In this document: one piece after another, positions 14,039-34,143 of the stretch
Numbering within the stretch: the first letter of the stretch is position 1
Layout of the letters: each line of letters begins with the position of its first letter
NCBI GenBank assembly: GCA_947369085.1
Contig: CANBJR010000010.1
Coordinates: 1 to 64,000 of the forward strand
Source: an uncultured Clostridia bacterium
Lineage (GTDB): Bacteria > Bacillota > Clostridia > Oscillospirales > Acutalibacteraceae
Reading direction: 5' to 3'
DNA length: 64,000 nucleotides
Made by a program: the position numbers and the translations under genes
Notes under the pieces: generated by a model
What the model saw: the letters and a program-made list of their open reading frames with translations, nothing else
What the model was told of the DNA's origin: nothing
Databases searched by the model: none

Positions 14039-15925
14039 TTAAATTATTGTGACCTTGTGGTCATTCAGAAACTTTTTTATTGATTGCATAGACTGACCCG
14101 CCATCGTCTGCATGGCGGTATCAATCCAGATATGCGATTCATTAGAATACAAAAGATTGCATGGTGAATACTGGAAGATATGACTACTCAGTTTATACGG
14201 CAGTTTCAGGCCGAGGCATATAAGTGCCAGAGACTCGACTGCAGGCGGATGCTTTCCGTTTATTATCCGGCTTACCGCATCCGAATTCATGGAGATGTTT
14301 TCTGCCAGTTCTTTATAAGATGTCCCACTGTCCTTGAATGCTTTCTGAAGGCAGTCTACATAATCGGTCGTGAACGTCTTATAAAGATTTACATAGTGGA
14401 TGATATAATCATCAAGAACTTCCTTCTGCCGCTCCGGAGGAGAATACTTAAGGCCGTCTGTATATGCAACATTAAGGATAACTTTGGCGTCCTTATCCTT
14501 ATTAAGATAGCAAACGGTGTAATATTCATTATCATCGCAGCCGACCACAGTCATGTCGAATGCAAGGCAGCATTTGTCCATGTGGTTACGTGCATAATCT
14601 GTAAGGACGGTCAAGCCCTCCTCATCGGTCTGCAAGTATTTACCGGAAGCGATAACCAGATGCGAGTCAACATACTGGTAAGAGCCGTCTGAAATAATCT
14701 CCTTCAGTTTTCTGTTGCTCATTACCTGACGGGCAAGATCCTCTGCACCGATGGTAAAAGTCTGATTGTTTTTAAGAGAGCCTTTTTTGAAGCGATGTGT
14801 TGCTACATAATGGTCATCGATCCAGTTAAATGTTCCGACTGCCTCTTCATATCCTGCCTCAACCATACGAATCTTAGCGGCAAGGCGCGAAACACCAAAA
14901 TCCACAGCAAGAGCATCGATAACAGGTTCTATGACATCAATTAGATCGAATTTCCCGAGACGTTCACGATACTCCTTAACCCGCTTCGACGCCATGATTT
15001 TAAATGCTCTCATCGGCATCTGGATTCTTGGAGTCAATGCATTTGCCTGACGCTCCATCTGGCTTACCGCACTGCTGTCGCGCCCTTTTACACCACCGAC
15101 AACACGGCAGCCGATCATACTGACATCATTATTACATAGCCGATCCAGTTCAAATGCCTTTTTGTGGAAGTCCCAGTGAACGCATTCATGGATGATCGTG
15201 TTGTTAACTTTGCCAAGGTTGTAAAGGAAATATGTCTGCGGATCAACGAGTATCGTTCTTGCCGGAATATGTACGATTTCGGTCTTCTTCGTCTTGTCAT
15301 CATACAATTCTGCATCACAGTCCTTGAAATAGACCTGTCCGAAGATGCTGCAATCCTCTGTTATAGAACGGATGACAACATTCAGATTCATACTCTTTGC
15401 CACTTCCATCGGATCGACATAACCGACATCAACCAGTGCCTTCTTATAATTCCGGCGCAGAAAGCCTTCTGCCGCCTCTTCGTAATCAGGCTTATTAATA
15501 ATCGGCACGAGACTGTCATAAAGTTTCTGCTGGTAGTGGTCTTTGGAATTATATATCTCCACACCATTGACCGTAAAGTCATTCAGATCCTTTTCCAGAT
15601 CACCGGTGCAGCGAAGAACAAACCACTGTTGCGGCCACTCGACCTCGTCATAATGATAATCGCCTTCATGAACTTCGATCTGTGCCTCAACACGGATATC
15701 GAATCCAATCTGGCTGCCAGGAAGGTCGTATGCGTCAACATGAAGCACTTTTGTTTCTGCAACTTCAAATTCCCCGACCTGGTGAATTCTGTATAATCTC
15801 AGGTTGAGGCTGTCAAAATCTTCACGGCCGACTTCTTCGACATAGGAATCAACAGAGTTAAAAATCTCGTTATCAAACCGCTGCGACACATATTCTTTGA
15901 ATGAACGACTTCCTGCCAAATACAT
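14039..15925 (-). CDS. ImmA/IrrE-type metallopeptidase with C-terminal HTH domain
   Basis: 628 aa. A ~200-residue N-terminal region of unknown fold is followed by a zinc-peptidase core IIHECVHWDFH (HExxH, ~244-250). The third-ligand region is MERQANALTPRIQMP, the classic ImmA/IrrE pattern. Near the C-terminus (~530-560) is an XRE-type helix-turn-helix (SYKELAENISMNSDAVSRI). It begins 6 nt after the McrC-like gene and shares its terminator, so it belongs to the restriction operon. ImmA proteases usually cleave a repressor. Here the repressor-like HTH is in the same chain, so self-cleavage or target sensing is possible (inference). Intact, far larger than ordinary ImmA. Confidence 0.85.
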   Translation of the reverse strand: MYLAGSRSFKEYVSQRFDNEIFNSVDSYVEEVGREDFDSLNLRLYRIHQVGEFEVAETKVLHVDAYDLPGSQIGFDIRVEAQIEVHEGDYHYDEVEWPQQWFVLRCTGDLEKDLNDFTVNGVEIYNSKDHYQQKLYDSLVPIINKPDYEEAAEGFLRRNYKKALVDVGYVDPMEVAKSMNLNVVIRSITEDCSIFGQVYFKDCDAELYDDKTKKTEIVHIPARTILVDPQTYFLYNLGKVNNTIIHECVHWDFHKKAFELDRLCNNDVSMIGCRVVGGVKGRDSSAVSQMERQANALTPRIQMPMRAFKIMASKRVKEYRERLGKFDLIDVIEPVIDALAVDFGVSRLAAKIRMVEAGYEEAVGTFNWIDDHYVATHRFKKGSLKNNQTFTIGAEDLARQVMSNRKLKEIISDGSYQYVDSHLVIASGKYLQTDEEGLTVLTDYARNHMDKCCLAFDMTVVGCDDNEYYTVCYLNKDKDAKVILNVAYTDGLKYSPPERQKEVLDDYIIHYVNLYKTFTTDYVDCLQKAFKDSGTSYKELAENISMNSDAVSRIINGKHPPAVESLALICLGLKLPYKLSSHIFQYSPCNLLYSNESHIWIDTAMQTMAGQSMQSIKKFLNDHKVTII

Positions 15926-15931
15926 CTCCTC

Positions 15932-17365
15932 CTATAATTCAAGCATGCTGATATCCATTTTCCTGCCTGACAGATAGTGGTCGTAGACCATATCAGCAGG
16001 AAGAAACCGCACCTTGATATTCTGTAATCCCAAAGCGGAGAGCATTTCCATCGATGCCTCTCCGTGATCTTCAATTTCTTTGTTCTCTGTTGGCATCAGA
16101 AAACAGTTCTTTACTACAGAGAATTCATGATCCATTATGAACTTCTGATATGCCAGCTGGTATAAATACTGCTTTGTCACAGACTCAATTCCGGGCTGCC
16201 CCTTTGGAGCATTTCCCGGTACAAGCTGCGCATTATAATACTTTGCATCAAATATAACGAACTGATCACCCGCAATCGAAACAAGGTCAGGGATAAGCGT
16301 ATCTGATGCCGTTTTCCCGGTCACCGACCACAGAGGCTTTTCTATCAAATCAATCAGTTTTTGCTTTCGGTCATATTCCGACTTAAGCGGTATCGGCAAC
16401 TGCAAAGCACCCAATCTGACATCAAGCTGATTGTCCATGATATCAGCGCATATGCCCTCCCATACAAGATTGAAGCTGTTTGTACCGAAGAGCGACAGGC
16501 AATCAGTATCATAAAGGCTGCCGCTATGTGCAATATAGGCATAGATGGTTTTCAGCAGAAGCTGCTTCCTGGTATTGAACTGAGTATTCAGTTCTTTCTC
16601 TATACGATAGAGGATGTACTCCTCTTCACCGAAATCATCGAGGACTTCATCGGTCAGATCCACTCCCGTGATTTCAAAGAGATCGAGCAGTTCTGCCTCC
16701 TTCAGTTCCTCCGACGCCTTTGTCAGGATACACTCATGCAGCCTCTTAAAGTAATCATAATCGTCTGTTACACGCTTCTTTGTCTGGAGATCGATATAGT
16801 ACGGTCTGTTATTCGAAATGAGAGTGAAGGTCTCGTTAATTGTCTTATCCCAAAGAATCTCGCCAGAACCATTGCTCTCGATGATGTCTTCCGTGTTGCT
16901 ATACACACCGTTTTCATAATAATCCTGCATGAGGAACAGAAGCACAGCAAGCAGATTAAATGCGCTGCTCTCACTGCTGTCATTGAACATCCGAACAATC
17001 TGTTCCTTAGTATTGTATTTCTCCAGAACTTTTAGCACCTGCCGCAACTCATTCTTTGGCTGATCAGCATTAAGCAGGTACTTCGGATAGCATTTAAGAA
17101 CGCGCCCGGCAACGACAATAACACCCACGAAGGTAAAGACATACAGATATTCGTCTTCGCCGATCTCAACATCTGCGACCTCGATATCCTCATCCATAAG
17201 GTCAGACATATCCCGTTGGAGATCAGATGCTTTGACCGCTTTCAGAACACCGAACTCTTTTAATTTCCGTATCAGCGGGATTGCTTTTTCTTCAGAGCAT
17301 CTGAGTATTTTACATAATTCTTTCTGTGTATATCTCTTTTGCTCTCTTACGAACTCAGAGATCAT
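15932..17365 (-). CDS. McrC/LlaJI-like restriction nuclease subunit
   Basis: 477 aa. N-terminal winged-helix-like segment (YTQKELCKILRCSEEKAIPLI), a central helical region, and a C-terminal PD-(D/E)xK nuclease core with LIPDLVSI followed by FVIFDAKYY (D...DxK). Matches the LlaJI family of McrC-like subunits (R2 of the lactococcal LlaJI system). It acts with the McrB-like GTPase encoded 14 nt upstream, which drives translocation or cleavage. Full length, catalytic residues present. Confidence 0.85.
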   Translation of the reverse strand: MISEFVREQKRYTQKELCKILRCSEEKAIPLIRKLKEFGVLKAVKASDLQRDMSDLMDEDIEVADVEIGEDEYLYVFTFVGVIVVAGRVLKCYPKYLLNADQPKNELRQVLKVLEKYNTKEQIVRMFNDSSESSAFNLLAVLLFLMQDYYENGVYSNTEDIIESNGSGEILWDKTINETFTLISNNRPYYIDLQTKKRVTDDYDYFKRLHECILTKASEELKEAELLDLFEITGVDLTDEVLDDFGEEEYILYRIEKELNTQFNTRKQLLLKTIYAYIAHSGSLYDTDCLSLFGTNSFNLVWEGICADIMDNQLDVRLGALQLPIPLKSEYDRKQKLIDLIEKPLWSVTGKTASDTLIPDLVSIAGDQFVIFDAKYYNAQLVPGNAPKGQPGIESVTKQYLYQLAYQKFIMDHEFSVVKNCFLMPTENKEIEDHGEASMEMLSALGLQNIKVRFLPADMVYDHYLSGRKMDISMLEL

Positions 17366-17379
17366 AAGCTACGACCTCC

Positions 17380-19317
17380 TTAGTTTTCGTCTTCAGTCAG
17401 TGCCCACTGTGGCTCCTCCGGCTCGGTTTCAAGTTGGATTTCGTGATTAAAGATACCGATACCCTTGGCATCAAATTCCCTGCAGATTTCTGAGTAACGA
17501 GTGCTGTCCTGGAAACAACCCTCAAACAGTTTAGCCCGTTTCTGCTTTGCTGCATCCTCGAACAGATACATGATCACCTTGTTCTTAAAGACACGGATAA
17601 AGTGCTCGCGGTCCATCTCATCACCATCGGTAGGTACTACAATATTTTTGGAAATGAAATAGGGACCAAGCTGCTTATCCTCGTTGATTTTCTCCTTTGC
17701 CAGGAAATGATTGATGGCTTTCCGCAGCTTGTTCCATTCGACCTTCTGCGATTTATCATCAGCAAGGTACACATACTTGCCGCGGATTTTTTCATCACTG
17801 TCATCAATACCGAGGTAGGTGAAGTCCCAGCGGCGCTTAAAGGCCGTATCCATCGGGAACACACCTTGGTCAGCACTGTTCATGGTAGCCCAGATGAACA
17901 TATTGTCCGGAATACGAATCTTGGCATAATCCTCCGGGTTACCGCCCAGTTCTTTAGCGAGATATGCTTTGATGTCTTCGGACGCCTGAATCGGATACTC
18001 ACTTACCTCGTTATCGCCACGATCAAGAAGCTGGAATACATCTCCAAAAACCGCTGCGACATTTGCACGATTGATTTCTTCAATTATAAGAAGAAACGGT
18101 TTCGGATTTGCTGTTCTTGCACTTTTAAGAGCGTTAACATAAACGCGCATGAAAGGTCCAGGAACGTACTCATAAGCGATATCGCTTGACTTTTCTTTTC
18201 CCGTAATAAGATTTACATACTTTCTAATTGCCCGTCCATGATTCTTCTCAACACTATTATCTCCGGCAGCATCACTTCCATCCTGTTTTCTTGTTTTAAA
18301 AGACTCATCGGTATATAGACCGAGGAGAACCGGAAGGCGTGTAAGTCCCTCATCCTTAAAGCGATCATACAAAAGATCGTACTTCTCCTGTGCTGTTCTG
18401 CTCTTGTCTGTAAGAATGGAAAGAACATACTTTGTATCCGGATCAGCAAGGGCATCTGCTTGTCCCTCCACCATCACGGGCTTATATGTACCCACAAAAT
18501 TGGCATATGAATAATCCGGATGGAATGTAACACGTTCATAATCTGTTTCGTTTTCTTCGCCGATTAGTTTCTTTCGTTCTTGATTGATTGTATAACTTTT
18601 TCCAGTACCCGGAGCCCCGAAAAGAATCCGATTGCGTGGGAACAGGGATTGTAATCCAGTACAAAAGATCAACTGTTCTACTTGTTCGCTCTCCTCTACA
18701 CCAGTGCTTTCTACCTCTGGAGGCGTGTGTTCTGCCAGTTCGGTAACTGTTCCTGTATGCAGCCAATCGCTATTTTTAAGATAGAAATATAAGAACTCTG
18801 GTTTAAACGCACATGCGTATTCTCCGCGCCCCTTATCCTGCTGCACAAAACCCTCTTGAATAGCTTTAGCAATGCTGTCAATTTTAATTTGCTTTGAAAT
18901 AGGTGTCTCAACAGAGGCAGCACTTGACTGCATTAACTTCCATGTGCAAAGTATTTCTTGCCCATCCTTTGAATAAACTCCGAGAAATACTCCCTTTTTC
19001 CCTTGAACGTACTTTTCATAGACGTAATTTAGAAACTTTGCTTTCGGCTGAATTCTCTGTTCATCCTTTAATCCCTGTCGACCACCGGGCGTGGTTCCCT
19101 TACCACAAATATAAATAGGTTCAAACTCACCGTTTGGGTATTCGACGCAAAACACATCTTCATAACCATCAACCTGCGACAACTGAGTTTCATACGGAAA
19201 AAGAGAAAAAGCGTGCCTTAAACTCTGCAGGACTTGTTCAGCAGAAAAGTAGGCTGATCTGTCATAATCCTCAGTGATTATTTCACCTTTACTGTTGGCA
19301 AATTGATATTCCGGCAT
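17380..19317 (-). CDS. McrB-like AAA+ GTPase restriction subunit (LlaJI R1 type)
   Basis: 645 aa. The N-terminal ~200 residues form a target-reading domain (TTPGGRQG, FLGVYSKDGQEI). A McrB-family AAA+ motor follows: Walker A FGAPGTGKSY (~233-242), Walker B LLIIEEINRAN (~408), and the signature WATMNSADQG with RRWDF. GTP-driven partner of the McrC-like nuclease. In LlaJI both R subunits are required and each has this architecture (known). The N-terminal domain is clearly similar to the divergent HNH nuclease at 21923. Confidence 0.9.
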   Translation of the reverse strand: MPEYQFANSKGEIITEDYDRSAYFSAEQVLQSLRHAFSLFPYETQLSQVDGYEDVFCVEYPNGEFEPIYICGKGTTPGGRQGLKDEQRIQPKAKFLNYVYEKYVQGKKGVFLGVYSKDGQEILCTWKLMQSSAASVETPISKQIKIDSIAKAIQEGFVQQDKGRGEYACAFKPEFLYFYLKNSDWLHTGTVTELAEHTPPEVESTGVEESEQVEQLIFCTGLQSLFPRNRILFGAPGTGKSYTINQERKKLIGEENETDYERVTFHPDYSYANFVGTYKPVMVEGQADALADPDTKYVLSILTDKSRTAQEKYDLLYDRFKDEGLTRLPVLLGLYTDESFKTRKQDGSDAAGDNSVEKNHGRAIRKYVNLITGKEKSSDIAYEYVPGPFMRVYVNALKSARTANPKPFLLIIEEINRANVAAVFGDVFQLLDRGDNEVSEYPIQASEDIKAYLAKELGGNPEDYAKIRIPDNMFIWATMNSADQGVFPMDTAFKRRWDFTYLGIDDSDEKIRGKYVYLADDKSQKVEWNKLRKAINHFLAKEKINEDKQLGPYFISKNIVVPTDGDEMDREHFIRVFKNKVIMYLFEDAAKQKRAKLFEGCFQDSTRYSEICREFDAKGIGIFNHEIQLETEPEEPQWALTEDEN

Positions 19318-19330
19318 TTAGCCCACCTCC

Positions 19331-20404
19331 TTACTCCTTTGTTGCATTACCACTGAAATACTGGTCATTGATGGCTTGTGCTACAATCTGAGCCATTCTC
19401 ACAGGAACAGCGTTTCCTACTTGTCTCCACTGGTCTCGAAAATCTCCGCATAATTCATAGTCATCATCAAATGTCTGAATCCTCTTTATTTCATTGATTC
19501 GAAGAAATCGGTTTTTCCAGTGAAACGGCCCCATGTTATTAGAGAAACTTGCTTGTATAGTCCACGAAGGACGATCCGGAGATAGTTTTAGCAAGAAAGA
19601 CCAATAACGTGACCGCCATTTAAATATCGGATTTGGATAACCCCTCTCCGCAGTAAAATACAAATAATTATCACCTGGAGGTACAAGTTTCAGAAGATCC
19701 TTATGTTTTGATCCTGCTTGCATCTCTGCATCTTCGGGCAGATCATAATCAAGATCACCGATTGCCTCTCCACAAGTGACCCATGGCCTTTTATCTCCTC
19801 TTTTATCTTCCGACACTTTTTCAGGATCGTAATGTGTCTCTTCCGGAAAAACAAAAGGCAAACCTTCTCCACGCTTTATTCCAACACAAATAAAACGTTC
19901 CCGCATTTGAGGTACACCATAATTTGCTGTGTTGACCACTTTGAACGTAATATCATATCCGTATTCGTCCGCACGTTCTTTGAGCAATTCAAACGCAGCT
20001 TGATGCGGTTTATACACAAAACCAAACACATTCTCAAAGAAGAATACCCTGGGTCTAATTTCATCTAATGCCCTGAAATATTCATAAAGAGTAAACGAGT
20101 TCTCGTCTTCCAATGCTCGCTTCTTCTCGGTACGGTAAAATCGTGATTTGGAGTAAGCCGGGCAGGGCGGTCCTCCAACCAAGACATCAATGTCAGCTTT
20201 TGTCATTCCTATTTTTGCAAGGCAGTCATCGTAGTTTATATTTCGAATATCATCGCAAACCACCATCTTGCCCACTTTATTTTTTTCAAGCGTATCACAT
20301 GCAGGCTTCCAGAAATCTGTCGAAAAGCAGATATCGAAACCCGCTTTTTTAAAGCCGCAATCTATGCCACCTCCGCCTGAGAAGATACTCAATACATTTG
20401 GCAT
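19331..20404 (-). CDS. DNA (cytosine-5) methyltransferase M2 of LlaJI-like system
   Basis: 357 aa. Motif I LSIFSGGGGIDCGF, motif IV GGPPCPAYSK (catalytic Cys ~78), motif VI FFENVFGF, motif VIII PQMRERF, motif X QVGNAVPVRM. A complete m5C set. The start ATG overlaps the stop of the preceding methylase (TAATG), with AAAGGAGAG upstream, so the two are translationally coupled. Two distinct m5C enzymes suit an asymmetric target in which each strand needs its own methylase. Confidence 0.93.
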   Translation of the reverse strand: MPNVLSIFSGGGGIDCGFKKAGFDICFSTDFWKPACDTLEKNKVGKMVVCDDIRNINYDDCLAKIGMTKADIDVLVGGPPCPAYSKSRFYRTEKKRALEDENSFTLYEYFRALDEIRPRVFFFENVFGFVYKPHQAAFELLKERADEYGYDITFKVVNTANYGVPQMRERFICVGIKRGEGLPFVFPEETHYDPEKVSEDKRGDKRPWVTCGEAIGDLDYDLPEDAEMQAGSKHKDLLKLVPPGDNYLYFTAERGYPNPIFKWRSRYWSFLLKLSPDRPSWTIQASFSNNMGPFHWKNRFLRINEIKRIQTFDDDYELCGDFRDQWRQVGNAVPVRMAQIVAQAINDQYFSGNATKE

Positions 20405-21465
20405 TAGTCTAAACTCTCCTTTAAATACTCTATCATTGCTTTCCCCATCAGGCACGGCACTGCATTGCCTATCTGCTTTTGAACAGAACGTCTTGTTCCG
20501 CAGAATTTATATCCACGGGGGAAAGTTTGGATTGCAGCGGCCTCGGGTGCCCTTAATCGCCGATTATCCCAGTGGAAAGGACCAACCCATGGACCGGGCT
20601 GCGCAGTAATCGTCCACGAAGGCATATCCGGTGACAGTTTCAGAAGGAAACTCCAAAACCGCTTATCTGCAACAAACTTCGGATTCGGATATCCTGCCCA
20701 TGCCGTCAACGCTTTGTAATTCTGCCCAGGGGGAACCTCGCACAAGTCTTCATAGTATGTGCCACCCTTCGTGACTTCGTATTCCTCAAAATATTCATCA
20801 CCATCGAATCCTTCAAGGAATGGACCAACCGCAGCGTAAGGCTGAAGACCTGTTATTGCACAAGTCTCAGGATCGCCGTGTGTTTTAACAGGTTCGCTAT
20901 GTTTAAATTCTCCTTTTGTTCCGATAATGAACAGCCTTTTTCGTTTCTGGGGAACTCCGTAATCCAAAGCATTCGCCCTGACAATTTTATACTTGTACCC
21001 ACTCTCTTCAATTATCTCTATAAACTTATCTATAATAGATTTGTTTGTGGGATGCATCAGGCTCTCAACATTTTCAAAAACAAATCCATCTGGTTGAATA
21101 TCTGTTACCACTCTCAAATATTCGTCTACAAGAGTGGCTCTCGGATCATTAATGCCTTTTCTTGTATTATTTCCGACCCAGTAACCCGCTTTTGAAAACG
21201 GCTGACATGGCGCACCGCCAATTACAATAAATTTCCTATGCTCATGTTTGCTGACAATATCTGAAAAAACAGAACTTTCAATCTGGTGCAAATCTCCTTC
21301 TAGTATTTCAGTGTTCCCAAATAAGTCTTCATTTGCTTTAAGAGTTTGAATACAGTCAGCATCAAAATCTGTGCTGGATACTACAGGAACACCAGCCATA
21401 ATACTTGCTATATCCAATCCGCCCGCACCAGAAAACAGACTGACTGCAATTATATCGTTGTTCAT
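20404..21465 (-). CDS. DNA (cytosine-5) methyltransferase M1 of LlaJI-like system
   Basis: 353 aa. Motif I VSLFSGAGGLDIAS, motif IV GGAPCQPFSK (catalytic Cys ~85), motif VI FENVESL, motif VIII PQKRKRLF, motif X QIGNAVPCLMG. Start chosen at 21465 (MNNDIIAVS), 6 nt after AGGAG; the longer track start lacks support. In the lactococcal LlaJI system M1 also controls operon transcription (known for that system); whether that holds here is open. Its target-recognition region differs from M2's, so the two probably methylate different strands or sites. Confidence 0.93.
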   Translation of the reverse strand: MNNDIIAVSLFSGAGGLDIASIMAGVPVVSSTDFDADCIQTLKANEDLFGNTEILEGDLHQIESSVFSDIVSKHEHRKFIVIGGAPCQPFSKAGYWVGNNTRKGINDPRATLVDEYLRVVTDIQPDGFVFENVESLMHPTNKSIIDKFIEIIEESGYKYKIVRANALDYGVPQKRKRLFIIGTKGEFKHSEPVKTHGDPETCAITGLQPYAAVGPFLEGFDGDEYFEEYEVTKGGTYYEDLCEVPPGQNYKALTAWAGYPNPKFVADKRFWSFLLKLSPDMPSWTITAQPGPWVGPFHWDNRRLRAPEAAAIQTFPRGYKFCGTRRSVQKQIGNAVPCLMGKAMIEYLKESLD

Positions 21466-21488: not shown

Positions 21489-21677
21489 TTACATGGCACT
21501 TTTGCCACTTTTTATCCATTCATCGACTTCGGATAGTTTGAACTTCCATTTTCGCCCGATTTTATGCGCAGGTATGTCTGTCTTCTTTATCCAATTCCTA
21601 ACGGTATCTTTGTTTACCCCTAAGTATTCAGCGACCTCTTCCAGGCTTACCCAAGGTTCAGTATTTTGAAGCTGCAT
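21489..21677 (-). CDS. Excisionase-type HTH protein leading the restriction operon
   Basis: 62 aa MerR/excisionase-like DNA-binding domain: SLEEVAEYLGVNKDTVRNWI followed by the wing IPAHKIGRKWKF and a LSEVDEWI helix. AAAGGAGGT is immediately upstream and a consensus promoter lies 36 bp before the start codon. First gene of the operon, 24 nt before M1. Small HTH proteins in this position are often present beside m5C restriction systems and may regulate them; it is not a canonical C protein. Confidence 0.85.
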   Translation of the reverse strand: MQLQNTEPWVSLEEVAEYLGVNKDTVRNWIKKTDIPAHKIGRKWKFKLSEVDEWIKSGKSAM

Positions 21678-21741: not shown

Positions 21742-21847
21742 GGTTTTGCGTGAAAATTTACTATTTATCTATGATTAGATATGAATAAGCGGTCTTTTAC
21801 ATATTTTAAAGAGAAATGAACGATTTGTAAAAGTTTAAGGCTAAATA

Positions 21848-21922: not shown

Positions 21923-22990
21923 ATGCCTTATAATCAGATTACTGCAACCGGGGCAATCGCTCCCGGAGTTGCACCTACGGGCCCCGATGCAAAACAAATT
22001 AGAGACTTAATCGATAGGGAACTGAATTCCAATGGATTTATATTTAAATGGGTTTCTAAAAACAAACAGCCTTATAGGGGAATTCTTGATACTGGTGGTA
22101 CACCAATTGACCTCTATATTTACGCATGGCGAATTGGCGATGGCGGTCGCATACGGCAAGGACGAATCTCTGAAAAGCGCATACAGTTAAATCCAGGCAC
22201 TGATCGCAGTGCTTTTGCGCTCCCCATAACTCCCACACAAAAGACTCTTCTGTTAGGAGTTTACGATAGTCCGCACGGTGAACCTATTTTCTCAGCATGG
22301 GATGCTACAAATATCGATCTCCTGAAAGCCACGCAGAAATCGGAATGGGTACAGGTCGAGGATTTGCAGAAAGCAATTTCTAACGGTATCTATCAGTTTA
22401 AAGACAGTGATGGTAACATTGGCTATTCGTTCTTGCCAAGCTACTTAGGTGATTATATTGACCTTGTCACGCCCGGTAATACTCTCACTGTTCCTTCTTC
22501 TACGACTGCCACTCTCAGTACCAAGGTGAAGACGGCCACAAAAACGCACAAGAAAGCCAGGACCATTAGATCCACAGATGCTATCTTGAAAAGTATCTCA
22601 AACGTTGACGAAACAGAGCGCCGTGCACTCACAAAACAGCGTGTCGGGCAAGGTTACTTCAGGGAATTATTAATGAACAAGTATGGGTGCAAGTGTGCAC
22701 TTTGCGGAATTACTACTAAACAGATGCTTGTAGGTAGTCATATAAAAGCATGGAGTGATTGTAATAACACAGAAAAGCTGGACGAAAACAATGGCTTGCT
22801 TCTCTGCGCACATCACGATGCTTTGTTCGATAAACACTTAATATCTTTTGAGGATACCGGAGATCTTATAGTCTCAACTACGCTAAATGCCAGTGAGCAA
22901 GCAGAACTTCATATTTCCACAATACCTCCGATTACGGTCACTCCGGGTATGAAGCCATATTTAGCTGACCACCGTTCAAAATTAAAGTAA
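21923..22990 (+). CDS. HNH endonuclease with McrB-type N-terminal target domain
   Basis: 355 aa. Residues ~50-190 carry GGRIRQGRISEKRIQ, LLLGVYDSPHGEPI and NGIYQFKDSDG, matching in order the N-terminal domain of the McrB-like protein at 17380-19317. The C-terminal HNH_2-type nuclease has CALCG, VGSHIKAW and NGLLLCAHHDALFD. The track begins at a TTG; the ATG at 21923 has AAGGAG 8 nt upstream and is the better start. Divergent from the restriction operon, sharing its promoter region, so it is probably a second effector of the same or a similar specificity. Confidence 0.88.
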   Translation: MPYNQITATGAIAPGVAPTGPDAKQIRDLIDRELNSNGFIFKWVSKNKQPYRGILDTGGTPIDLYIYAWRIGDGGRIRQGRISEKRIQLNPGTDRSAFALPITPTQKTLLLGVYDSPHGEPIFSAWDATNIDLLKATQKSEWVQVEDLQKAISNGIYQFKDSDGNIGYSFLPSYLGDYIDLVTPGNTLTVPSSTTATLSTKVKTATKTHKKARTIRSTDAILKSISNVDETERRALTKQRVGQGYFRELLMNKYGCKCALCGITTKQMLVGSHIKAWSDCNNTEKLDENNGLLLCAHHDALFDKHLISFEDTGDLIVSTTLNASEQAELHISTIPPITVTPGMKPYLADHRSKLK

Positions 22991-23004: not shown

Positions 23005-23271
23005 ATGAAGCAGTTACCTCAAAAGCGGGAACTCATGGATGCCATTTTAATAGTGATGAAAAATGCCAATGGTGCCATGAATACCGCTACTATTAATGAC
23101 CTCGTAGAAAAGCGTTTAAGTATTCCAAAGGACTTACTTGAAATCGAGGGCGCCAATTGTTCGGGCACAGAATACAGTTACCGAATGCGCTGGGCAAGAA
23201 CTGAATTAAAGCAGAAAGGCTTTATCCGAAATGTAAAGCGAGGCGAATGGGAAATCTGCCCTGAACAATAA
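23005..23271 (+). CDS. Stand-alone Mrr-N-like winged-helix protein
   Basis: 88 aa. Helical start (RELMDAILIVMKNANG), DLVEKRLSIPKDLLEIE and SYRMRWARTELKQKGFI...GEWEI fit the N-terminal winged-helix domain of Mrr restriction proteins. No nuclease domain follows. It begins 14 nt after the HNH gene with GGAGG, so the two are co-transcribed. It may bind DNA to guide or control the HNH enzyme (inference). Confidence 0.7.
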   Translation: MKQLPQKRELMDAILIVMKNANGAMNTATINDLVEKRLSIPKDLLEIEGANCSGTEYSYRMRWARTELKQKGFIRNVKRGEWEICPEQ

Positions 23272-23513: not shown

Positions 23514-25156
23514 TCACGCAACTGTTTCATCGCATATTTTTATGGTGTTTATTATAGAGTTAATTTCTTTTGCTGTCAAAAGGGAGGTAATATTAAATTT
23601 TACTTCGTCTAAATCATTACACTTCCACTTGTAATGACTATTTATTTTATCAATTACCGTCTTCTCAATAGTCTGTTTGCACATATATTCTGTAATTATG
23701 CTCGGGGTATATACAGAACCATCTTTATAACCGTTCAGTTTTTCAAAAATAAGTCCAAGTACAGAAGCATCTATAATTTCACGATTTTTCGTTCTTTTTT
23801 CATCATCTGTTCCTTGAGCAGAGAAATCATAACTATTCAGAAAATTTATTATATATTCTAATAAGGGAATTTCTTTTGGCGCATGTTTCCCAAGAGACGA
23901 TTTGCTCGCACGATTTACTTTTTCATTCCTGATTTCTTTAATATTTATATCTTCACGTTCAATATCTTGTTGCTCAAACAAAGAACTGTTCAGGTACGGA
24001 ATTTCAGTAAATTGATTATAAAATCGGTCGTCATTGCGCTCTTTCTTACCGAGGACATTAAAGAAAAGCTTCTGTAAATCACTAAAGCTTTTAATTTTTG
24101 TATTATCAAAATTTTGTATGCATAATCGTTACTGTTAAAGGATATAAGCTGTCCCTCAAACAGCTTAATAAGTAAAAGACGATTTATCCAAATAATGATA
24201 AGTTCAAAAGTTTTCTCTGTTGCTTCTTTTTTTGAATGGTATATATCATTATAGCCTTTGTCATCCACATAAATGTTGTAAACCTGATTAGTCAATGAAT
24301 TCTTAATAGATGAATCAATTTGAATGACCGTCTTGTTTTTATTGTTTTCATCCTTTGCCTCTTTCAGTCCCATAATATAAAGCAGTTCATGGTAGAAATT
24401 ATTGTTGAGCACATTTGTCTTTGCCTCAACATTGTATCCCTCTTTCAGCAAAAACTCCTTGGACAGAATTTTATATAAATACCTATCTTCTTTTGATTTA
24501 AATTTTCTAATATCAAAAAATGTATATACAAGCTTATTTGAGACATTTATTTTATCAAAATAATCTTTGATATCTTCATAGAATTTCGAAGTATTTTTAG
24601 CATAAGTAAGCTTATTATTTTCATATTTCCAAAAGAGTTTTTCAAGATAGCCGTCACATATCTTATCCAATTCCGTTGCATCTATGATCATCCATGTTAA
24701 TGCATCTGTAATTATTAAATTTTTCAACTCGGAGTTAGTATTTCTCGTAATCTTCTTGCTATCAGTATTTCTGGTTTCTTTTAAGAAGTAATAAGTTAAT
24801 TCCCATAAAGCTTTTTTATTAATGTTATCTTTGCATACCATTTCCTGAATATTGGTAGTTTTCTTAACCTCTATAAGCACATTATTAACTCCGTAAACCC
24901 GAATAGATGAGTCAACACTTTTATTAGTATTAATATCATATATACTTCTATCAGGATAAAAATTATCCTGCAGAAAATCATTAATTTCTCTTTTGAAGTA
25001 TTCCTCGTTTTCGTTATTAGTAATACCTAAATCTATTTTCTTTTTATATACTTTTAATGATGTTGAAAAATCATCAAAAGTTGTTTTTGGAATTTTGACT
25101 CTATAATATCTCTCGTCAAATTTCTCCAATGTTTTGTCTATTAACTGCAGTGCCAT
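23514..25156 (-). pseudogene. Type IIG restriction-modification enzyme, frameshifted and truncated
   Basis: The start MALQLIDKTLEKFDERYY has GGAGG upstream. A nuclease-like core ends in NVLIEVKK (E-x-K). The 400-aa ORF then loses frame near 24115, where an AAAAA to AAAA loss would restore YKNFDNTKIKSFSDLQKLFF and join it to the second ORF (23514-23981). That part continues through DASVLGLIFEKLNGYKDGS and then stops at KICDETVA, exactly where relatives have the SAM motif I (D-P-A-V-G-S-G-H). The methylase catalytic motif NPPY and target-recognition domain are missing. Length with one base restored is an exact codon multiple (548). Family remembered as DUF7149/Eco57I-like; certainly non-functional as a methylase. 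Confidence 0.82.
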
Positions 25157-25268
25157 ATAATGTCCTCCGTGTAGCCTTATAAAGAAAATCAATATATACT
25201 GATTTCGAATAAACTATACTATAGAATATTTCAAATTATTTTCTTCGTTTAATAAAAGATTGGCGAGT

Positions 25269-27086
25269 TTACAACTTGTTTGCTAATTCACCCATAAATC
25301 CCAATTGTAAATTATCAGGCATACCTACAACTGATACTCTATCCAATAAAACATTTCGGAATTCGCATGAAGTTTCCGGCAGTAAGGTGCACGCATGACA
25401 TGCGGCATAATTCAAAGAAGCAAAGCCTTGATGCATTGAAGTTGAGCACAAAGGATCGCCACTGCACCAACGCGCCTCTTTAAGCATATTTTTTAACACC
25501 TTGTCCAACAATTCGGTATCTTCAGCAACACTGATTAAACCTCCAAGACTTCCATCGCTGTCGGAAGATGACAAATATATCAGCACGCCGTTCATCACTG
25601 TATCATTTGTACCATCAGTAAAAGTTGAATATATTTTTTCTCGCATAGAAGCTGCGCTATAACCACATTCATTTGCAAGCTGTCTTATAAATAAATGGGC
25701 AAATGTATGCAGCAAAATATATTGAGGTGAAAATTTAGGAGATTTAAAAAAGCTATTTTGATGTGATATTTTTAATTCATCATATCTACTACCTATTCTG
25801 CGTATCCATCTGTCAATTACGGATTTTTTAAACTTAATAAATATTCCCTCGCCGTTAAGTTCAGTGGCCGGAAGCCACTCTTTCTTTTCTAAAGATAAAG
25901 GAGCTATGCGTTCAGAATTTTTACCGTCATAAGGATATAGCCTTGTAAAACCACTTAAGGTCATCGTAACAACCAGTCTGTCAACTACAGACTCTATATC
26001 AAAGTATTCTTTGAAATCATTCGGAATATTGACAAAATGTGATGAATATCTATCCTCTGAAATCTTATCCTTACATAAGATTTTATATTCATCTGCATAC
26101 ACATCAGCCTCAATACGAATCATATTTGATTTTCTGCGATTTTTGAGAGTTTCATATGCATCTAACAAATTATCAAGTCCGAGATACGGACATTTAGGTA
26201 AAATACAGTTTTTGATATATTCTACTTGTTTTTCATTTGTCATATATGAGAGACGTTCATACTCTTTTTCAATTTGGTGTATGGCTCTTTGACTCCAAGG
26301 TGGTATTAACAAAGCACTTTGCGTAACAGGAAAATATATACCGGATGACGCTCTAAGTCTTGTTGTCGGCACAGCCGTACATTCTTGCGTAAAATCTCCT
26401 AAATGCGGATGCTTCCCACAACAAGGTCGTCCGTTCTCACCTGCGAAAGCATTTTTATTAAACACTCCAACCATACTGCGTTTCTCTCCACATTCTGCGC
26501 ATTCCAAAATAAGACTTTCAGTGTCGCTTCGTCCGCCTATATTATACATCTTTACTCGTGGTACAGATTTTCCGCTTTTACAAGGCTTTCCACTATGCAC
26601 CCACCATGAGTATGGAAAATCCTCCATATGTCCATTTTCGCATATAAGTACAAAGCGAGAAGCTACAAGCTGTCCATTGCAGGGTTTTCCGTTTTTTCCA
26701 TATTGATTACATTTTTGCTTATTAGACTGATTAGTAAGTTCACGATAATCAATAATGCTTTTGCATACCGGACAATATAACTTTTGTGGAAAAACATAAG
26801 ATAAAATATCTTGATTAGAAAGCAAATATGACGCTCCTCCGGAGACCTTAGGAGAAAGAAAATATTTAGCGCCGGTAAATGATTGTAAATTTTCATTAGT
26901 AAGCTGACGGTTTTCCCAACCATCATCTTTATCCCAATCATCAACGCCGCCGATAACTGCAGTTTCTCTTACAAAATCAACTATACTGCCTATACCATAT
27001 GTGGATATTATCTGACTTTTTCTTATCTCGCCGATATGATGTTTTATTTTATTTGCTTTTTTCATTCTTTTAAAAGGATTTGACAC
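25269..27086 (-). CDS. drmB: DUF1998 protein, DrmB-like
   Basis: 605 aa, GTG start with GGGAG 7 nt upstream. N-terminus IGEIRKSQIISTYGIGSIVDF is typical of DrmB of DISARM systems. It has several Cys pairs (LYCPVC, CAECGEKR, CHAC) likely to bind zinc, and a C-terminal DUF1998 region (YILLHTFAHLFIRQLANECGY, SSDSDGSLGGL). DrmB pairs with the helicase DrmA encoded just upstream (12-nt gap). In DISARM the DrmA-DrmB complex binds and threads invading DNA. Intact. Confidence 0.87.
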   Translation of the reverse strand: MSNPFKRMKKANKIKHHIGEIRKSQIISTYGIGSIVDFVRETAVIGGVDDWDKDDGWENRQLTNENLQSFTGAKYFLSPKVSGGASYLLSNQDILSYVFPQKLYCPVCKSIIDYRELTNQSNKQKCNQYGKNGKPCNGQLVASRFVLICENGHMEDFPYSWWVHSGKPCKSGKSVPRVKMYNIGGRSDTESLILECAECGEKRSMVGVFNKNAFAGENGRPCCGKHPHLGDFTQECTAVPTTRLRASSGIYFPVTQSALLIPPWSQRAIHQIEKEYERLSYMTNEKQVEYIKNCILPKCPYLGLDNLLDAYETLKNRRKSNMIRIEADVYADEYKILCKDKISEDRYSSHFVNIPNDFKEYFDIESVVDRLVVTMTLSGFTRLYPYDGKNSERIAPLSLEKKEWLPATELNGEGIFIKFKKSVIDRWIRRIGSRYDELKISHQNSFFKSPKFSPQYILLHTFAHLFIRQLANECGYSAASMREKIYSTFTDGTNDTVMNGVLIYLSSSDSDGSLGGLISVAEDTELLDKVLKNMLKEARWCSGDPLCSTSMHQGFASLNYAACHACTLLPETSCEFRNVLLDRVSVVGMPDNLQLGFMGELANKL

Positions 27087-27098
27087 AATAACACTCCC

Positions 27099-30000
27099 TT
27101 ATTGCTCAATATATACATTAGAACTTTCTTCTACATTCCGCAAAGAATTAAGGACAGGAGGAAAATCAAAATCTGAAGTTTCTTCCGCTGAATTTAATAA
27201 GGAAATATTTCCGCTTTGCTTGCTATCATAGCATAAATTAGGGTAAATCTTTGTAATAGAATCCCATTCTGAAATTATTTCATTCAATATACATTCGGCT
27301 GTATCTTTTGCTTTTGGATGTAAGTTATATACTCTTTCAAGTATAAAATTCTTTATTTGTAACACTTGGGCATCATTTCTTTGAAAATATGCAGGAGAAT
27401 CATTGCCTGAAAGATATGGAACAGTTAGACGCACTAATGCAATAAACACATAGTGCAGTGCTTTTTCCATTGCTCTTGCAGAAAAAGGCGTTACACTTGT
27501 GGCTTCAACATACTGATAAAATGATTTATGATAAAATCCAAACTGCTCATAATGTGACTTATCCCTTGAGCGCATAGGATTATACATAGCTATAACAACA
27601 CCGGGCTTGCTTCGTCCTACACGGCTTGTTGCCTGAATATACTCAGCATTCGTTTTTGGTTGGTTATAGACCGTCATAACACCTAATCTATTTATATCTA
27701 TTCCTACTGACAGCATATTTGATGCTAATACATACGAATAACAACCGTTTTTATTATAAGCAAAATCCAAATGCTCAAGTGTATCCTTTATCTCTTTGGC
27801 GCTCTTTCTTCCGGTAAGCTCTTCGCTATAAAGATACGGAATATCCCTTTCGGACAAACCTAATAAAGTGCATATTTCTTGGAATTTTCTTTCGATTAAT
27901 GTTTTAATATGCGTATATATACGATCCTGCAAAATATTTGCGGAAGCACCTAAATCACGAATAGCATTAAAATATCCAATAACCGTATAATACTGATCAA
28001 TTACCTCATCTGTTTTTCCTTGTTTTATAAACAAGGCTTTAACAAAAGTAAGTATTGCGTAAATACGCACGAGCAAATCTGCAACGCTTCCTCCGCTTTC
28101 ACAAACTCCAATATATGTTCTCGCCGGTCGTTCATCTTTGCTTGCTATACGAGAAAAGAATGAATCATCAAAAGAGATACCGCTTGGCGGAAATTGCTGC
28201 ATCTTTTTATTATATAGGTTTCTTATTTGCTCATCAGCGTTTTTAACAGTTGCAGTAGAAGCTATAATTTTAGGTGAAATTCCGTCTTTTCTGCAAAGAT
28301 AATCGACTGCAATTTCATATAATCCTTCAGGTGAACCAAGAGATCCTGATATAAGATGAAGTTCATCTTGAATTATCAAAGATGGAGGAACTTTTTCAAC
28401 ACCAAATAAACGCTTAGTATCCTCTACCCACGCCAGACGTGCAAATTTATCAATAGTACTCAACAATAATGTCGGACATTGCTTGTAAATGTCATCATCT
28501 ACAATATAAATAGGAAGCTTTTCATGAAATTCGCAATTAGGGTTATCTTTACAACAAATTGTCATACCGTCAGGACCTATGCTATAGCTGGTAATATCAA
28601 TTTTTTCACCGCACCAAGGACAAGTTGTTATTTGAACGGGGTTTCCCTCGTATATTTTTTCATCCCTATTATTTTTTAGTTTTTGCAAAACTTCATTTGC
28701 TTTTTCTAAGTTATTTGGTGTAGTTGCTGATCCTATCCATAAACCAATGCTTATTTCGCCACCCGGAATATCGTAAATTCTTCGTAAGTATTCACACGCA
28801 CAAATCATTGCAGCCGTACGCTCAAATTGCTGTATAGTCAAAAGTCTGAGTGTATACCGCATTATTACGGTTACACCATCATCAACATATCTTTTCGAAA
28901 TTCTGCGATATAAAATAGTAAATGCCGCAACACCAAGATATGCTTCTGTTTTTCCGCCACCAGTAGGAAACCATAGTAAGTCAACATCATCGTGAAATTC
29001 ACTTTTTGGATCAACTATATCCGGTACTATTTGCAATATGTAGGCAAGCTGAAACGGATACCAATTAACTTGTTCGGGCTTTTGTTTTTTGGTATTGACA
29101 CGCTGCAACAACATAGCTTCGTTCATAAACAAAAATGCTTTCCAAGCATTGTCATTGTTTTTTAAAACATCAACTCCTGTTCTGAGCCGTTTTATACATA
29201 TCTCAATACGATTTATCAATTCAACTGCTGCTTTGTAAAACTGACTAATTGATTTAATCTCTTTTCTCTTACATTCTTTCCATTCTTCATACTCATCAAT
29301 AAAAGCATTTAAATCATTGCAGGCCGTCTTACGGTCTGCATTTTTCCAAGTATCCAATGACAGTATTCTTGCATTTTTTATTTTACCGGGCATCATTTGC
29401 AAAACCTGTTCCGTCGGAATAAAATCACTTGATATTTTAAATACTCCTCTTTTTGTTTCATCATATGAAACTGAACATCCGTGTCCGTATGCATAGTTTT
29501 TTACATTCTGATACAGTAAAGATTTTATCTGAGATTCTATATCAGATTTAGGATACAGATTTTGATATACAGGCAAAAACGAGCTATCAGATTCAACAGA
29601 TAGTTGACATTGAAACAGTGCATATTCATTTCTTATGTGCAGTTTATTCTTTTCAGTTGCAGTATTTACTACTGAAACAGTCAGCAGCTTACTGCCATCT
29701 GACATAATTTTCCTGACCGTTAAGTTTATTTCAGCATTGAAATCGTCATAATAAGCTATACTTTCACCTCCAAGTTCTGAAGGAATATTGAAAGTCAAAT
29801 TGATACTTTTCGGTATGCGTGTGTATTTATGGTCAGTTATCTCCTTAATGTTTTTTTCAGACAATTCACCCAAAGTTAGTTGTCCTTTTTCTTCAATAGT
29901 TCCGGAGCTTGGTATTTTCCGTTTGCTTTCTGAATGCTTATAAATACCAAAATCAAATGTTACTAACAACTTTTTTAAGGATGGAGGAACCATAACCGAG

Positions 30001-30308
30001 ATTCCCATAGACGAAGGTCTGTAATTATTTGCTTCGGTAATTGTATCATCAAGACTGTCAAGTGTATTCTCAAGCAATATATTATCTTCGGCATTAAGCT
30101 CATTTTCCTCAGAATCAAATAATGCTATTTGGTGGTTAACGCTATTATTTTGCGATGCCTTTCTCGGATACAATATTCCTGTAACATATGCAGAAAGCGG
30201 CTCAACATTTTCCAAAATCTCATCTTCTGAAGAAACCCCAAATAAATCCTTTGTTAAACATTCTTTTATTTCATCAATTGCTTTGTAGTATTCGTCAAAA
30301 CCACTCAT
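27099..30308 (-). CDS. drmA: DISARM-type SF2 helicase, DrmA-like
   Basis: 1069 aa. N-terminal ~400 residues of the type found in DrmA, then Walker A FPTGGGKTEAY (~447-457), Cys pairs CPWCGEK...CC, motif II IIQDELHLISG (~648), STATVKNA, and C-terminal motifs SVGIDINRLG and IQATSRVGR. The motif II form xDELH and the YNQPKTNAEYIQATSRVGR block are characteristic of DrmA/DUF1998-associated helicases. It starts 1 nt after the UvrD-like gene's stop. Intact and full length, unlike the genes around it. Confidence 0.88.
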   Translation of the reverse strand: MSGFDEYYKAIDEIKECLTKDLFGVSSEDEILENVEPLSAYVTGILYPRKASQNNSVNHQIALFDSEENELNAEDNILLENTLDSLDDTITEANNYRPSSMGISVMVPPSLKKLLVTFDFGIYKHSESKRKIPSSGTIEEKGQLTLGELSEKNIKEITDHKYTRIPKSINLTFNIPSELGGESIAYYDDFNAEINLTVRKIMSDGSKLLTVSVVNTATEKNKLHIRNEYALFQCQLSVESDSSFLPVYQNLYPKSDIESQIKSLLYQNVKNYAYGHGCSVSYDETKRGVFKISSDFIPTEQVLQMMPGKIKNARILSLDTWKNADRKTACNDLNAFIDEYEEWKECKRKEIKSISQFYKAAVELINRIEICIKRLRTGVDVLKNNDNAWKAFLFMNEAMLLQRVNTKKQKPEQVNWYPFQLAYILQIVPDIVDPKSEFHDDVDLLWFPTGGGKTEAYLGVAAFTILYRRISKRYVDDGVTVIMRYTLRLLTIQQFERTAAMICACEYLRRIYDIPGGEISIGLWIGSATTPNNLEKANEVLQKLKNNRDEKIYEGNPVQITTCPWCGEKIDITSYSIGPDGMTICCKDNPNCEFHEKLPIYIVDDDIYKQCPTLLLSTIDKFARLAWVEDTKRLFGVEKVPPSLIIQDELHLISGSLGSPEGLYEIAVDYLCRKDGISPKIIASTATVKNADEQIRNLYNKKMQQFPPSGISFDDSFFSRIASKDERPARTYIGVCESGGSVADLLVRIYAILTFVKALFIKQGKTDEVIDQYYTVIGYFNAIRDLGASANILQDRIYTHIKTLIERKFQEICTLLGLSERDIPYLYSEELTGRKSAKEIKDTLEHLDFAYNKNGCYSYVLASNMLSVGIDINRLGVMTVYNQPKTNAEYIQATSRVGRSKPGVVIAMYNPMRSRDKSHYEQFGFYHKSFYQYVEATSVTPFSARAMEKALHYVFIALVRLTVPYLSGNDSPAYFQRNDAQVLQIKNFILERVYNLHPKAKDTAECILNEIISEWDSITKIYPNLCYDSKQSGNISLLNSAEETSDFDFPPVLNSLRNVEESSNVYIEQ

Positions 30309-30309
30309 A

Positions 30310-32657
30310 TTATATCTCCGTCCATTCTGTTCTGCCGAAACCGCTTATTTCAACGCCTAACCAAAAACGGTTATTTCGAAAAATTTGCGGAATGTTTTCA
30401 TAATTTTTATTCGAAACATATGTTATTACATTTGTAATATATAAATTACTGATTTTATCCGGAAGTCTGGTAGATATAAATCGTCTGCCGCCGAATTTTT
30501 CCCTAAGATTATCGGAATATTCTCTTGTCATTTCACCAATTACAATATCATTGTGTATGATATAATATCTGTCTTCGCTGTTAAGCTTTAAATAAATCTC
30601 ATCTTCAGCTTTAACATTATTTGCAATGTATTCTTGTCTTGTTACAGCTTCAATCAGATTTCCGCTAACAAAAGAACTGTAATCTATATCATTGGGAAGA
30701 CCTGTCGCAAAGCCGGCACAAAAGGGGTTTTTATAAGGTACTTTTATCGTTCTAATCCATCGGTTGCAATTACTTTTTAAAAAATACCAATCATATTTTT
30801 TGCCTTTTTTCAGAATTTCAAGCTCTTTTTTCGGACGTGTTTCAGCCACATAAAGAATTCTTTCTTCCTCAGTATCTGATTCATCCTTTTTATAATCCGG
30901 ATTATAGTCATATCCAAGCAGATATACCTTGTCAAATTCACGACCTTTAGCCTTATGTATAGTGGACACAATAAGATGGTTATTATTTTCATTTCGAATA
31001 GTTTCCGGGAAATCAATTTTTTGGCATAAAATTTCAGCCAGCTTTTCACGGTCAATATAATCATAGGCATAATCGGATGTAATTTCCGTTAAAAATTCTG
31101 TCAAGCTATTATAAAAGCCGTCAGCTTGCTTTTCGGTAAAATCACATCTGACACAAAGTCTTTTTGTGAATTCATCCTTCGACATAATTTTATCAGCATA
31201 GTCCCAGAGCACATCAGCTATACATCTATTTAGAGACATATCTTGCCCGATGTTTCGCACAAGGGTATGAGGTATTTTTTTACTATGTAAAAGTGTACTC
31301 ATATACTCTGCTTCATCATTATTTCTACATAGAATAGCAGTAGTATCTTCTTCCGGAGTATTAGTTTTGCTGAAATTTTCAGCCGATACTGTTGTCGGAA
31401 GAGTCAAAAGCATTTTTCTAAAAACAGCAGTAATATTACTAGGATCAAAATTAAGCAAAGAAGAACGCAATTCAGTTGTTTGTTCATTTAAAAATTGTGA
31501 CTGCCGCTTATTTCCTGTTAATTCATACTTTTTTGTATTGTCAGGCAGTATTTCACCTAAGCATTTATAAAATTCAGTTGAATTAATGTTTTGCTCACCT
31601 GTGCAATCGTAATCGTAAATCGCCTGACATTTATCTCCGAGAAGCAAATACCCGCAACATAAAGCATTAAGAATATTCAACATCATTAAGGCACGATCGT
31701 TAACCAAATCCTGAAGTTCATCTACTATGCAGTAAACAAAGTCTTCAAAATCTTCAGAATTTATCTTCTCATTAAAAAGGCATATTCTTTGATTATAATC
31801 AAGCTTAGAAAGCTCGTCCAAGCTAACACCAATAGTAATTAAGTAGTTCGTCGCTATAGAATCAAATGTGCAGATATTAACCTGATTTGCTTCATAAGGT
31901 ATTATGCCAGCCTTTACACCCTCTTGAATACGCTTTTTAATTTCTGCAACAGTGCTCGTGTGTAACAAAGGACAAGGATTGCATCACAATTTTCCGGTGA
32001 AGTATTTTTCAAAATATAAAGCAATCGTTGAATAGCTGTGTATGTTTTTCCTGTTCCCAGTCCGGCATTGACAAGAATATGACTGTTTAAATCTGTTTCA
32101 ATAATTGCATCTATTGCCTGAATTTCGTCAATTTCAACATACTCTGCACGATCAGTAACTATATCCTCAATTCTGATTACTGCTTCATCAGGTACAAATT
32201 CTTCATTACTGTTGGATTCAAAATCCGGCTCAGCAAACACATCCGTGTTTCCTTTAATTCCAAGCCACTCAAGTTCAACGACACCGTCATCATCTTCTTC
32301 AGTTACCGTTATCTCACTGCGATTAATTTTTTTGGGGGTACAAATAAAACAGTCTTTTGCTTCACATCTGCACTCATAAAAATATTCACCGTTTTTAAAT
32401 ACTTTTCCAAATGATTTTTCGCCTTTTGGGGCATGTATACATGATGAAGACTCTTGTAATTCCTTTTCTTGAACAGGGCTCAATCGAACGCTTGATAAAG
32501 TTCCGCTATATTTATGTTTTATTACTTCCAAAGCATTTTGACCGGAAACATGAGCTACAAATTCAGGATCACGTTGTAAATCGTCAAATCCATCAACAAA
32601 AGACCGGGGATTTCGAATATATATGTTACTAACAATATTTATATTTGATTTGTACAT
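30310..32657 (-). pseudogene. UvrD/Rep-like helicase split by a frameshift
   Basis: The first ORF (31914-32657) holds an N-terminal region with CRCEAKDCFIC and Walker A LVNAGLGTGKTY, ending ILVLCYTRA. The second ORF (30310-31968) continues TVAEIKKRI and carries motif II VDELQDL, QAIYDYD, VSTIHKAKGREFDKVYL and RILYVAETRPKKE. Restoring one base near 31952 (CGAGCACTG to CGAAGCACTG) would give CYTRSTVAEIKKRI, the normal UvrD sequence, and an exact codon multiple (783). SF1 3'-5' helicase. GAGGTGATA precedes its ATG at 32657; it lies 12 nt after the Hsp70 gene. Probably inactive unless the deletion is a sequence error. Confidence 0.85.
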
Positions 32658-32668
32658 ACTATCACCTC

Positions 32669-34126: not shown

Positions 34127-34143
34127 AATCGAACCTCCATAAA

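Follow-up and report, generated by a model that had tools for sequence, protein, structure and literature searches.

An MTaX1 domain common to an HNH nuclease and the McrB-like subunit of a LlaJI-type restriction-modification system in an uncultured Clostridia bacterium

We analysed a 64,000-nucleotide stretch of DNA from an uncultured Clostridia bacterium (hereafter, the window) and found that an HNH nuclease and the McrB-like subunit of a neighbouring restriction-modification system carry the same N-terminal domain, the Pfam family MTaX1 (PF20296). On balance, we consider the HNH protein to be a second restriction effector of this system, steered by the same type of reader domain and held off by the same methylation as the main nuclease.

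Results

The HNH gene adjoins a LlaJI-type restriction-modification system

The features on which the analysis rests are listed below. Related loci in other genomes and viral contigs are given L numbers.

21923–22990, plus strand: MTaX1-HNH endonuclease, 355 aa (Pfam PF20296, E 1.2e-18; PF13391 HNH_2, E 2.4e-12)
21923–22468, plus strand: predicted N-terminal reader domain of the HNH protein, residues 1–182 (Pfam MTaX1 match at 22109–22459)
22694–22852, plus strand: HNH_2 nuclease core, with H273, N290, D299 and D303 invariant in nine HNH homologues
23005–23271, plus strand: Mrr_N winged-helix protein, 88 aa (PF14338, E 4.1e-11), downstream of the HNH gene
21770–21788, plus strand: TATGATTA-GA-TATGAATAA element between the HTH_17 and HNH genes, with TATGAATAA at 7 of 7 loci
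21489–21677, minus strand: HTH_17 DNA-binding protein, 62 aa (PF12728, E 4.2e-19), at the head of the methylase operon and conserved at 7 of 7 loci
20404–21465, minus strand: M2, cytosine-5 DNA methyltransferase (PF00145, E 3e-52), 79–94% identical across loci
19331–20404, minus strand: M1, cytosine-5 DNA methyltransferase (PF00145, E 1.3e-56), 72–93% identical across loci
17380–19317, minus strand: McrB-like AAA+ subunit with predicted MTaX1 reader (PF20296 and PF07728, AAA_5)
18748–19317, minus strand: predicted N-terminal reader domain of the McrB-like subunit, residues 1–190 (Pfam MTaX1 match at 18778–19116)
15932–17365, minus strand: LlaJI-type nuclease subunit, McrC-like (PF09563 RE_LlaJI, E 7.2e-49)
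14039–15925, minus strand: 628-aa protein with weak matches to IrrE/M78 metallopeptidase and HTH families, both under the Pfam cut-off

The minus strand thus reads, in order, HTH_17, M2, M1, McrB-like subunit, LlaJI nuclease and 628-aa protein, and the MTaX1-HNH and Mrr_N genes run divergently on the plus strand. The combination of M1, M2, McrB and PF09563 identifies the setting, by its gene content, as a LlaJI-type restriction-modification system, and its usual reader is replaced by MTaX1. McrB structures matched the McrB-like subunit across the AAA part only. Homologues of the 628-aa protein were found downstream of the LlaJI nuclease at L006, L011, L013, L009/L014, L022, L023 and L025. This protein may belong to the system; it recurs at most of the related loci.

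The HTH_17 gene lies under the usual ORF size limits and is easily overlooked by size cut-offs. It came to light in an attempt to read out the target from words shared between intergenic regions; that approach was abandoned as a target readout and turned up this gene and the TATGATTA-GA-TATGAATAA element instead. The element is a possible operator.

Beyond the Mrr_N gene, the minus strand holds two ORFs at 23514–25192 that encode just the front of a type IIG restriction enzyme-methyltransferase, which for that reason looks like a broken remnant. The longer ORF matches positions 8–316 of the 1247 of PDLC03612 and contains DUF7149, and DUF7814 is split between the two ORFs. Further along the same strand (25269–34147), DrmB-like and DrmA-like genes precede those for a UvrD helicase and an HSP70-like protein, each spread over two ORFs. 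These genes may represent a DISARM-related locus that contains frameshifts or sequencing errors.

The HNH protein is a predicted nuclease

The HNH ORF begins with an ATG at 21923, has a GGAG ribosome-binding site upstream, and runs for 355 codons to a stop at 22990. By codon comparison, the gene is under purifying selection (dN 0.26 and dS 1.7 against the homologue at L010). Its nuclease half evolves more slowly (62–83% identity) than its reader half (42–65%), and the active-site residues never vary among the nine homologues. The closest solved nuclease domains are those of VcaM4I and TagI; H273, N290, D299 and D303 of the window protein align with H224, N241, D250 and D254 of VcaM4I (PMC7897488). 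VcaM4I also matched the HNH model along its length, with a TM-score of only 0.24. The intact catalytic residues, the purifying selection and the occurrence of MTaX1-HNH proteins next to methylases elsewhere support its prediction as a nuclease effector.

The HNH and McrB-like proteins share an N-terminal domain

The first-pass annotation had proposed that the two proteins share an N-terminal domain, and the profile searches bear this out. Against the Pfam gathering cut-off of 25 bits for PF20296, the HNH protein scored 68.2 bits (E 1.2e-18, residues 63–179) and the McrB-like protein 75.8 bits (E 5e-21, residues 68–180). Direct comparison by BLASTP gave an E value of 1e-5, with 27% identity over ~100 residues. 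A profile-profile alignment of nine HNH sequences with seven McrB sequences reached 99.1% probability (E 1.2e-18) over 167 columns, covering residues 8–180. The common part is longer than the ~110 residues originally claimed: it spans ~170–180 residues, including an N-terminal hairpin (Y-Q...G.I).

Most of the sequence blocks described for the pair are likewise real. GG-R, RIQ, LGVY..G.(E/P)I, W, A..(N/E)G and F.P..L..Y occur in both proteins at matching positions, whereas the proposed KD..G block is not, the McrB-like protein having DKGRG at that place. These blocks had also been taken as a sign that the two proteins may be aimed at the same DNA, and in that form we rejected the argument. Positions R76/R80, E84/E86, R86/R88, Q88/Q90, G112/G113 and W126 are also retained in MTaX1 proteins from unrelated systems, in some cases with a conservative replacement, and nearly all residues that the HNH and McrB readers have in common recur, unchanged or conservatively replaced, in the MTaX1 proteins of other systems. 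Most of the shared blocks are therefore family-wide and mark a common fold or family rather than a common target. With the two readers ~23% identical and the motifs family-wide, the motif match cannot tell whether the HNH and McrB targets coincide.

We also compared AlphaFold2 models of the two proteins, each built with its own alignment. The HNH reader was modelled with block pLDDT values mostly of 80–94, the nuclease part of the protein poorly, and the McrB-like N-terminal domain with a mean pLDDT of 82. Predicted secondary structure agreed at 135 of 175 aligned residues (77%); in rotated controls, agreement averaged 33% and never exceeded 45%. The order of secondary-structure elements, compared along the sequence alignment and without superposition, thus agrees with a single fold in the two models. 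In Foldseek searches, neither the PDB, queried with both models, nor viral models, queried with the McrB reader, yielded a significant structural relative of the reader domain. Such weak hits as there were leaned towards PD-(D/E)XK proteins (Hjc, I-Ssp6803I, RecU and EcoRV), all with E values of 0.05 or worse, and no conserved catalytic D...(D/E)xK was found in the reader domain; for these two reasons, we make no claim about its fold. A PUA fold was absent among the matches listed for the McrB reader model.

MTaX1 follows the methylases in the McrB-like subunit

In Pfam, MTaX1 stands for "methylase-associated X1", a name that rests only on association with methylases. Wherever M1 and M2 were kept (72–94% identical), the N-terminus of the McrB-like protein was MTaX1. 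At L015, for example, identity to the window's proteins is 33% for the motor and 23% for the nuclease, compared with 52% for the reader and 82–86% for M1 and M2. The opposite was found in the gut phages L025 and L026, in which the motor is 65–67% identical to that of the window, the methylases differ and the N-terminus is unrelated (11–17%). In the gut phage LlaJI-type systems at L025 (5970–9050) and L027 (3846–6881), the motor is close to that of the window and the N-terminus is BpuJI_N-like, indicating that reader domains have been exchanged on related motors. Because the N-terminus tracks the methylases and not the motor, the assignment of MTaX1 as the reader of the McrB-like subunit is well supported by these sequence comparisons. 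To this extent, the earlier suggestion that the common domain reads the target holds up.

MTaX1 was also seen in other contexts. At L037 (4857–6422, Hymenobacter), it is fused to GmrSD_N (DUF262) beside a HEPN gene, and is thus carried by another effector. L003 (1459–2865) contains a 174-aa MTaX1 protein without a nuclease, directly downstream of an apparent DNA methylase gene.

The HNH gene recurs beside the same module

Full-length relatives of the HNH protein, 47–68% identical, were found in viral and genome contigs; searches of plasmids and phages with the reader alone or with the whole protein gave no full-length close relatives. MTaX1 is rare in the lineage: of 295 genomes of the order, two carry it, including the window's, and of 399 of the phylum, only the window's does. 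This limits linkage statistics. Seven independent loci with differing flanks have the MTaX1-HNH gene in divergent orientation next to M2-M1-McrB-LlaJI: the window, L004 (Clostridiales NK3B98), L006, L011, L013 (Anaerocolumna), L014 (Oceanobacillus) and L015 (Lachnospiraceae). As this set was seeded with the HNH protein, it is no measure of how often the system carries one. With the McrB reader as the seed, five loci were recovered from viral contigs; the systems of three of them have the HNH gene (one seen through L014 only). The other two were L022, which is cut upstream, and L023, a complete M2-M1-McrB-LlaJI system lacking HNH, so the HNH gene is not essential to the system. Both L022 (1–1344) and L023 (8636–9988) encode an Mrr_cat nuclease of ~450 aa immediately before McrB, which at L023 places it between M1 and McrB.

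Not every relative has this setting. The HNH locus at L010 is cut by the contig end. At L005 (8834–9913), an orphan MTaX1-HNH gene lies on the opposite strand in a phage tail region, and the 12-kb contig holds no methylase. An HNH gene with a different N-terminus occupies the opposite strand of a phage tail operon at L030 (4431–5408).

The first-pass annotation had treated the HNH and Mrr_N genes as a pair. We found Mrr_N at the window, L004, L006, L010, L015 and L023 but not at L011, L013 or L014; it is thus missing from three HNH loci and present at one lacking HNH, and we discarded the idea of an obligate pair in favour of a variable companion.

MTaX1-HNH proteins occur with other methylases

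On a Thiothrix plasmid, an N4/N6 methylase gene and an MTaX1-HNH gene overlap by 20 bases and form a two-gene unit, whose flanks contain no further annotated restriction gene. The Paracoccus MTaX1-HNH gene has an Eco57I-type methylase on one side and, on the other, a C5 methylase that is 49% identical to M2; this C5 methylase and M2 have AQPGPWVGPFHWDNRRLR in common, and their recognition segments are near-identical. In Roseivivax, it accompanies an N4/N6 methylase and an Mrr protein (L035, 2534–3898), to which the Mrr proteins of L022 and L023 are 40% identical. A haloarchaeon has it within a DUF499/DUF1156 locus.

In a tree of MTaX1 domains, window-type HNH, McrB and Paracoccus HNH fell on one side of a branch (support 97/93; 98/93 without the McrB of L013), and the MTaX1 proteins of N4/N6-methylase and other systems on the opposite side. 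The Paracoccus branch is very long, and the grouping is therefore only suggestive. The N-terminal hairpin is common to the HNH and McrB proteins of window-type loci and absent from the other MTaX1 proteins compared.

Discussion

We propose that the HNH protein would act as a second restriction endonuclease of the window's LlaJI-type system. Its MTaX1 domain would bind the unmethylated M1/M2 recognition site, and its HNH domains would dimerise and cut at the site directly, free of any motor. The MTaX1 domains of the McrB-like hexamer would bind the same or an overlapping site; the hexamer would then load the LlaJI nuclease, which would cut after NTP-driven movement. Methylation by M1 and M2 would shield the host from HNH and McrB-like/LlaJI alike. 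We infer that MTaX1 is a reader of DNA sequence, that the HNH and McrB-like proteins have coinciding targets and that methylation blocks the HNH enzyme, as well as that this enzyme cuts as a dimer and the McrB-like/LlaJI machine translocates. Speaking for the proposal are the shared domain, the way the McrB-like N-terminus tracks the methylases, the linkage at seven loci, the pairing of MTaX1-HNH with methylases in Thiothrix, Paracoccus and Roseivivax, the tree and the hairpin, and the invariant active site with purifying selection on the gene. Weighing against it are the low identity and largely family-wide motifs of the two readers, the HNH-free system at L023, the orphan at L005, the modification dependence of VcaM4I and TagI, and the length of the Paracoccus branch. 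The argument for a common target is an indirect one: an active nuclease that methylation blocks needs a cognate methylase, and only M1 and M2 travel with the HNH gene. This argument falls if the HNH enzyme is modification-dependent like its nearest solved relatives.

Such an enzyme would be type IV-like, with MTaX1 sensing a modified base or foreign methylation and catching phages that escape the main nuclease. The kinship of its nuclease domain with VcaM4I and TagI points that way (PMC7897488, PMC6212794), as does the coexistence of a methylation-dependent HNH enzyme with a McrBC-like restriction-modification system in one strain (PMC8989522); the orphan gene on the methylase-free contig of L005 would fit as well. 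We nevertheless consider it rather unlikely, because MTaX1 also reads for the methylase-linked McrB-like subunit, where 5mC self sites must be spared, and because at seven loci the HNH protein adjoins two 5mC methylases whose product it must tolerate. The Thiothrix two-gene unit with its N4/N6 methylase also argues against it.

It is more doubtful still that the HNH gene has nothing to do with the system, being some small mobile or defence gene that came to rest beside it and has an unrelated target of its own. Its divergent orientation and own transcript, a phylogeny that is not exactly that of M2 or McrB, the orphan in the phage tail region of L005 and the HNH gene with another N-terminus at a similar place in the phage L030 would all suit such a gene, but this reading accounts poorly for a constant arrangement at seven independent loci with differing flanks, or for the HNH and McrB readers having a hairpin in common and grouping together in the MTaX1 tree. 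We regard as very improbable a Vsr-like repair nicking enzyme, in which MTaX1 would find the methylation site and T:G mismatches arising from 5mC deamination would be nicked. A site reader beside two 5mC methylases, as at the seven complete loci, is what such an enzyme would be expected to have; yet the nuclease domain is of the HNH restriction type and not Vsr-like, the paired methylases of Thiothrix and Roseivivax are of the N4/N6 type, where T:G repair makes no sense, and an Mrr-type nuclease is found at L022 and L023, the latter lacking HNH.

The chances seem even that the system as a whole is layered, with one methylation mark and one reader type controlling two unlike nucleases, the second place being held by an HNH or an Mrr-type enzyme. 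Should the two nucleases answer to one type of reader, a single methylation pattern would guard against two attacks, and a phage that disabled the motor-driven enzyme would still face the HNH enzyme. MTaX1 would also gain a testable role, with two natural proteins and the Thiothrix two-gene unit available for finding its ligand.

Comparison with known systems

MTaX1 has already been said to occur in several restriction-modification systems (PMC10853773). What seems to be new here is that two unlike nucleases of one conserved module carry MTaX1 and that the second of them is exchangeable; in the literature, we found no description of one locus with MTaX1 on two unlike nucleases.

The window system resembles LlaJI of pNP40 from Lactococcus lactis in its two cytosine-5 methylases, McrB-like AAA+ protein, PF09563 nuclease and gene order (PMC1459862). 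In LlaJI, specificity resides in a single subunit, R1 (PMC1459862), and the reader has been reported as a B3 domain (PMC12707154). The McrB-like subunit aligned with R1.LlaJI by blastp (E 4.8e-36) over the AAA part only, with no N-terminal alignment, and R1.LlaJI has no MTaX1 match where the window protein carries MTaX1. LlaJI recognises unmethylated 5'-GACGC-3'; the window's M1 and M2 are 21–27% identical to the LlaJI methylases. Unlike the window, the annotated neighbourhood of LlaJI on pNP40 contains no HNH, Mrr_N or IrrE-like gene. Type IV McrBC differs in having no cognate methylase, whereas the window operon has two.

PcaI and PcaII likewise combine a McrBC-like type II system with an HNH enzyme in one cell (PMC8989522). 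PcaII differs from the window HNH protein in that no methylase gene lies near its own, it is antagonistic as well as methylation-dependent, and its N-terminus is described as a three-helix bundle (PMC8989522). VcaM4I (EVE-HNH) and TagI (SRA-HNH), both modification-dependent (PMC7897488, PMC6212794), share with the window protein an N-terminal reader followed by a C-terminal HNH domain of like subfamily and active-site residues. Unlike them, the window protein has an MTaX1 reader, with no Pfam match to SRA, EVE or YTH, and is linked to methylases.
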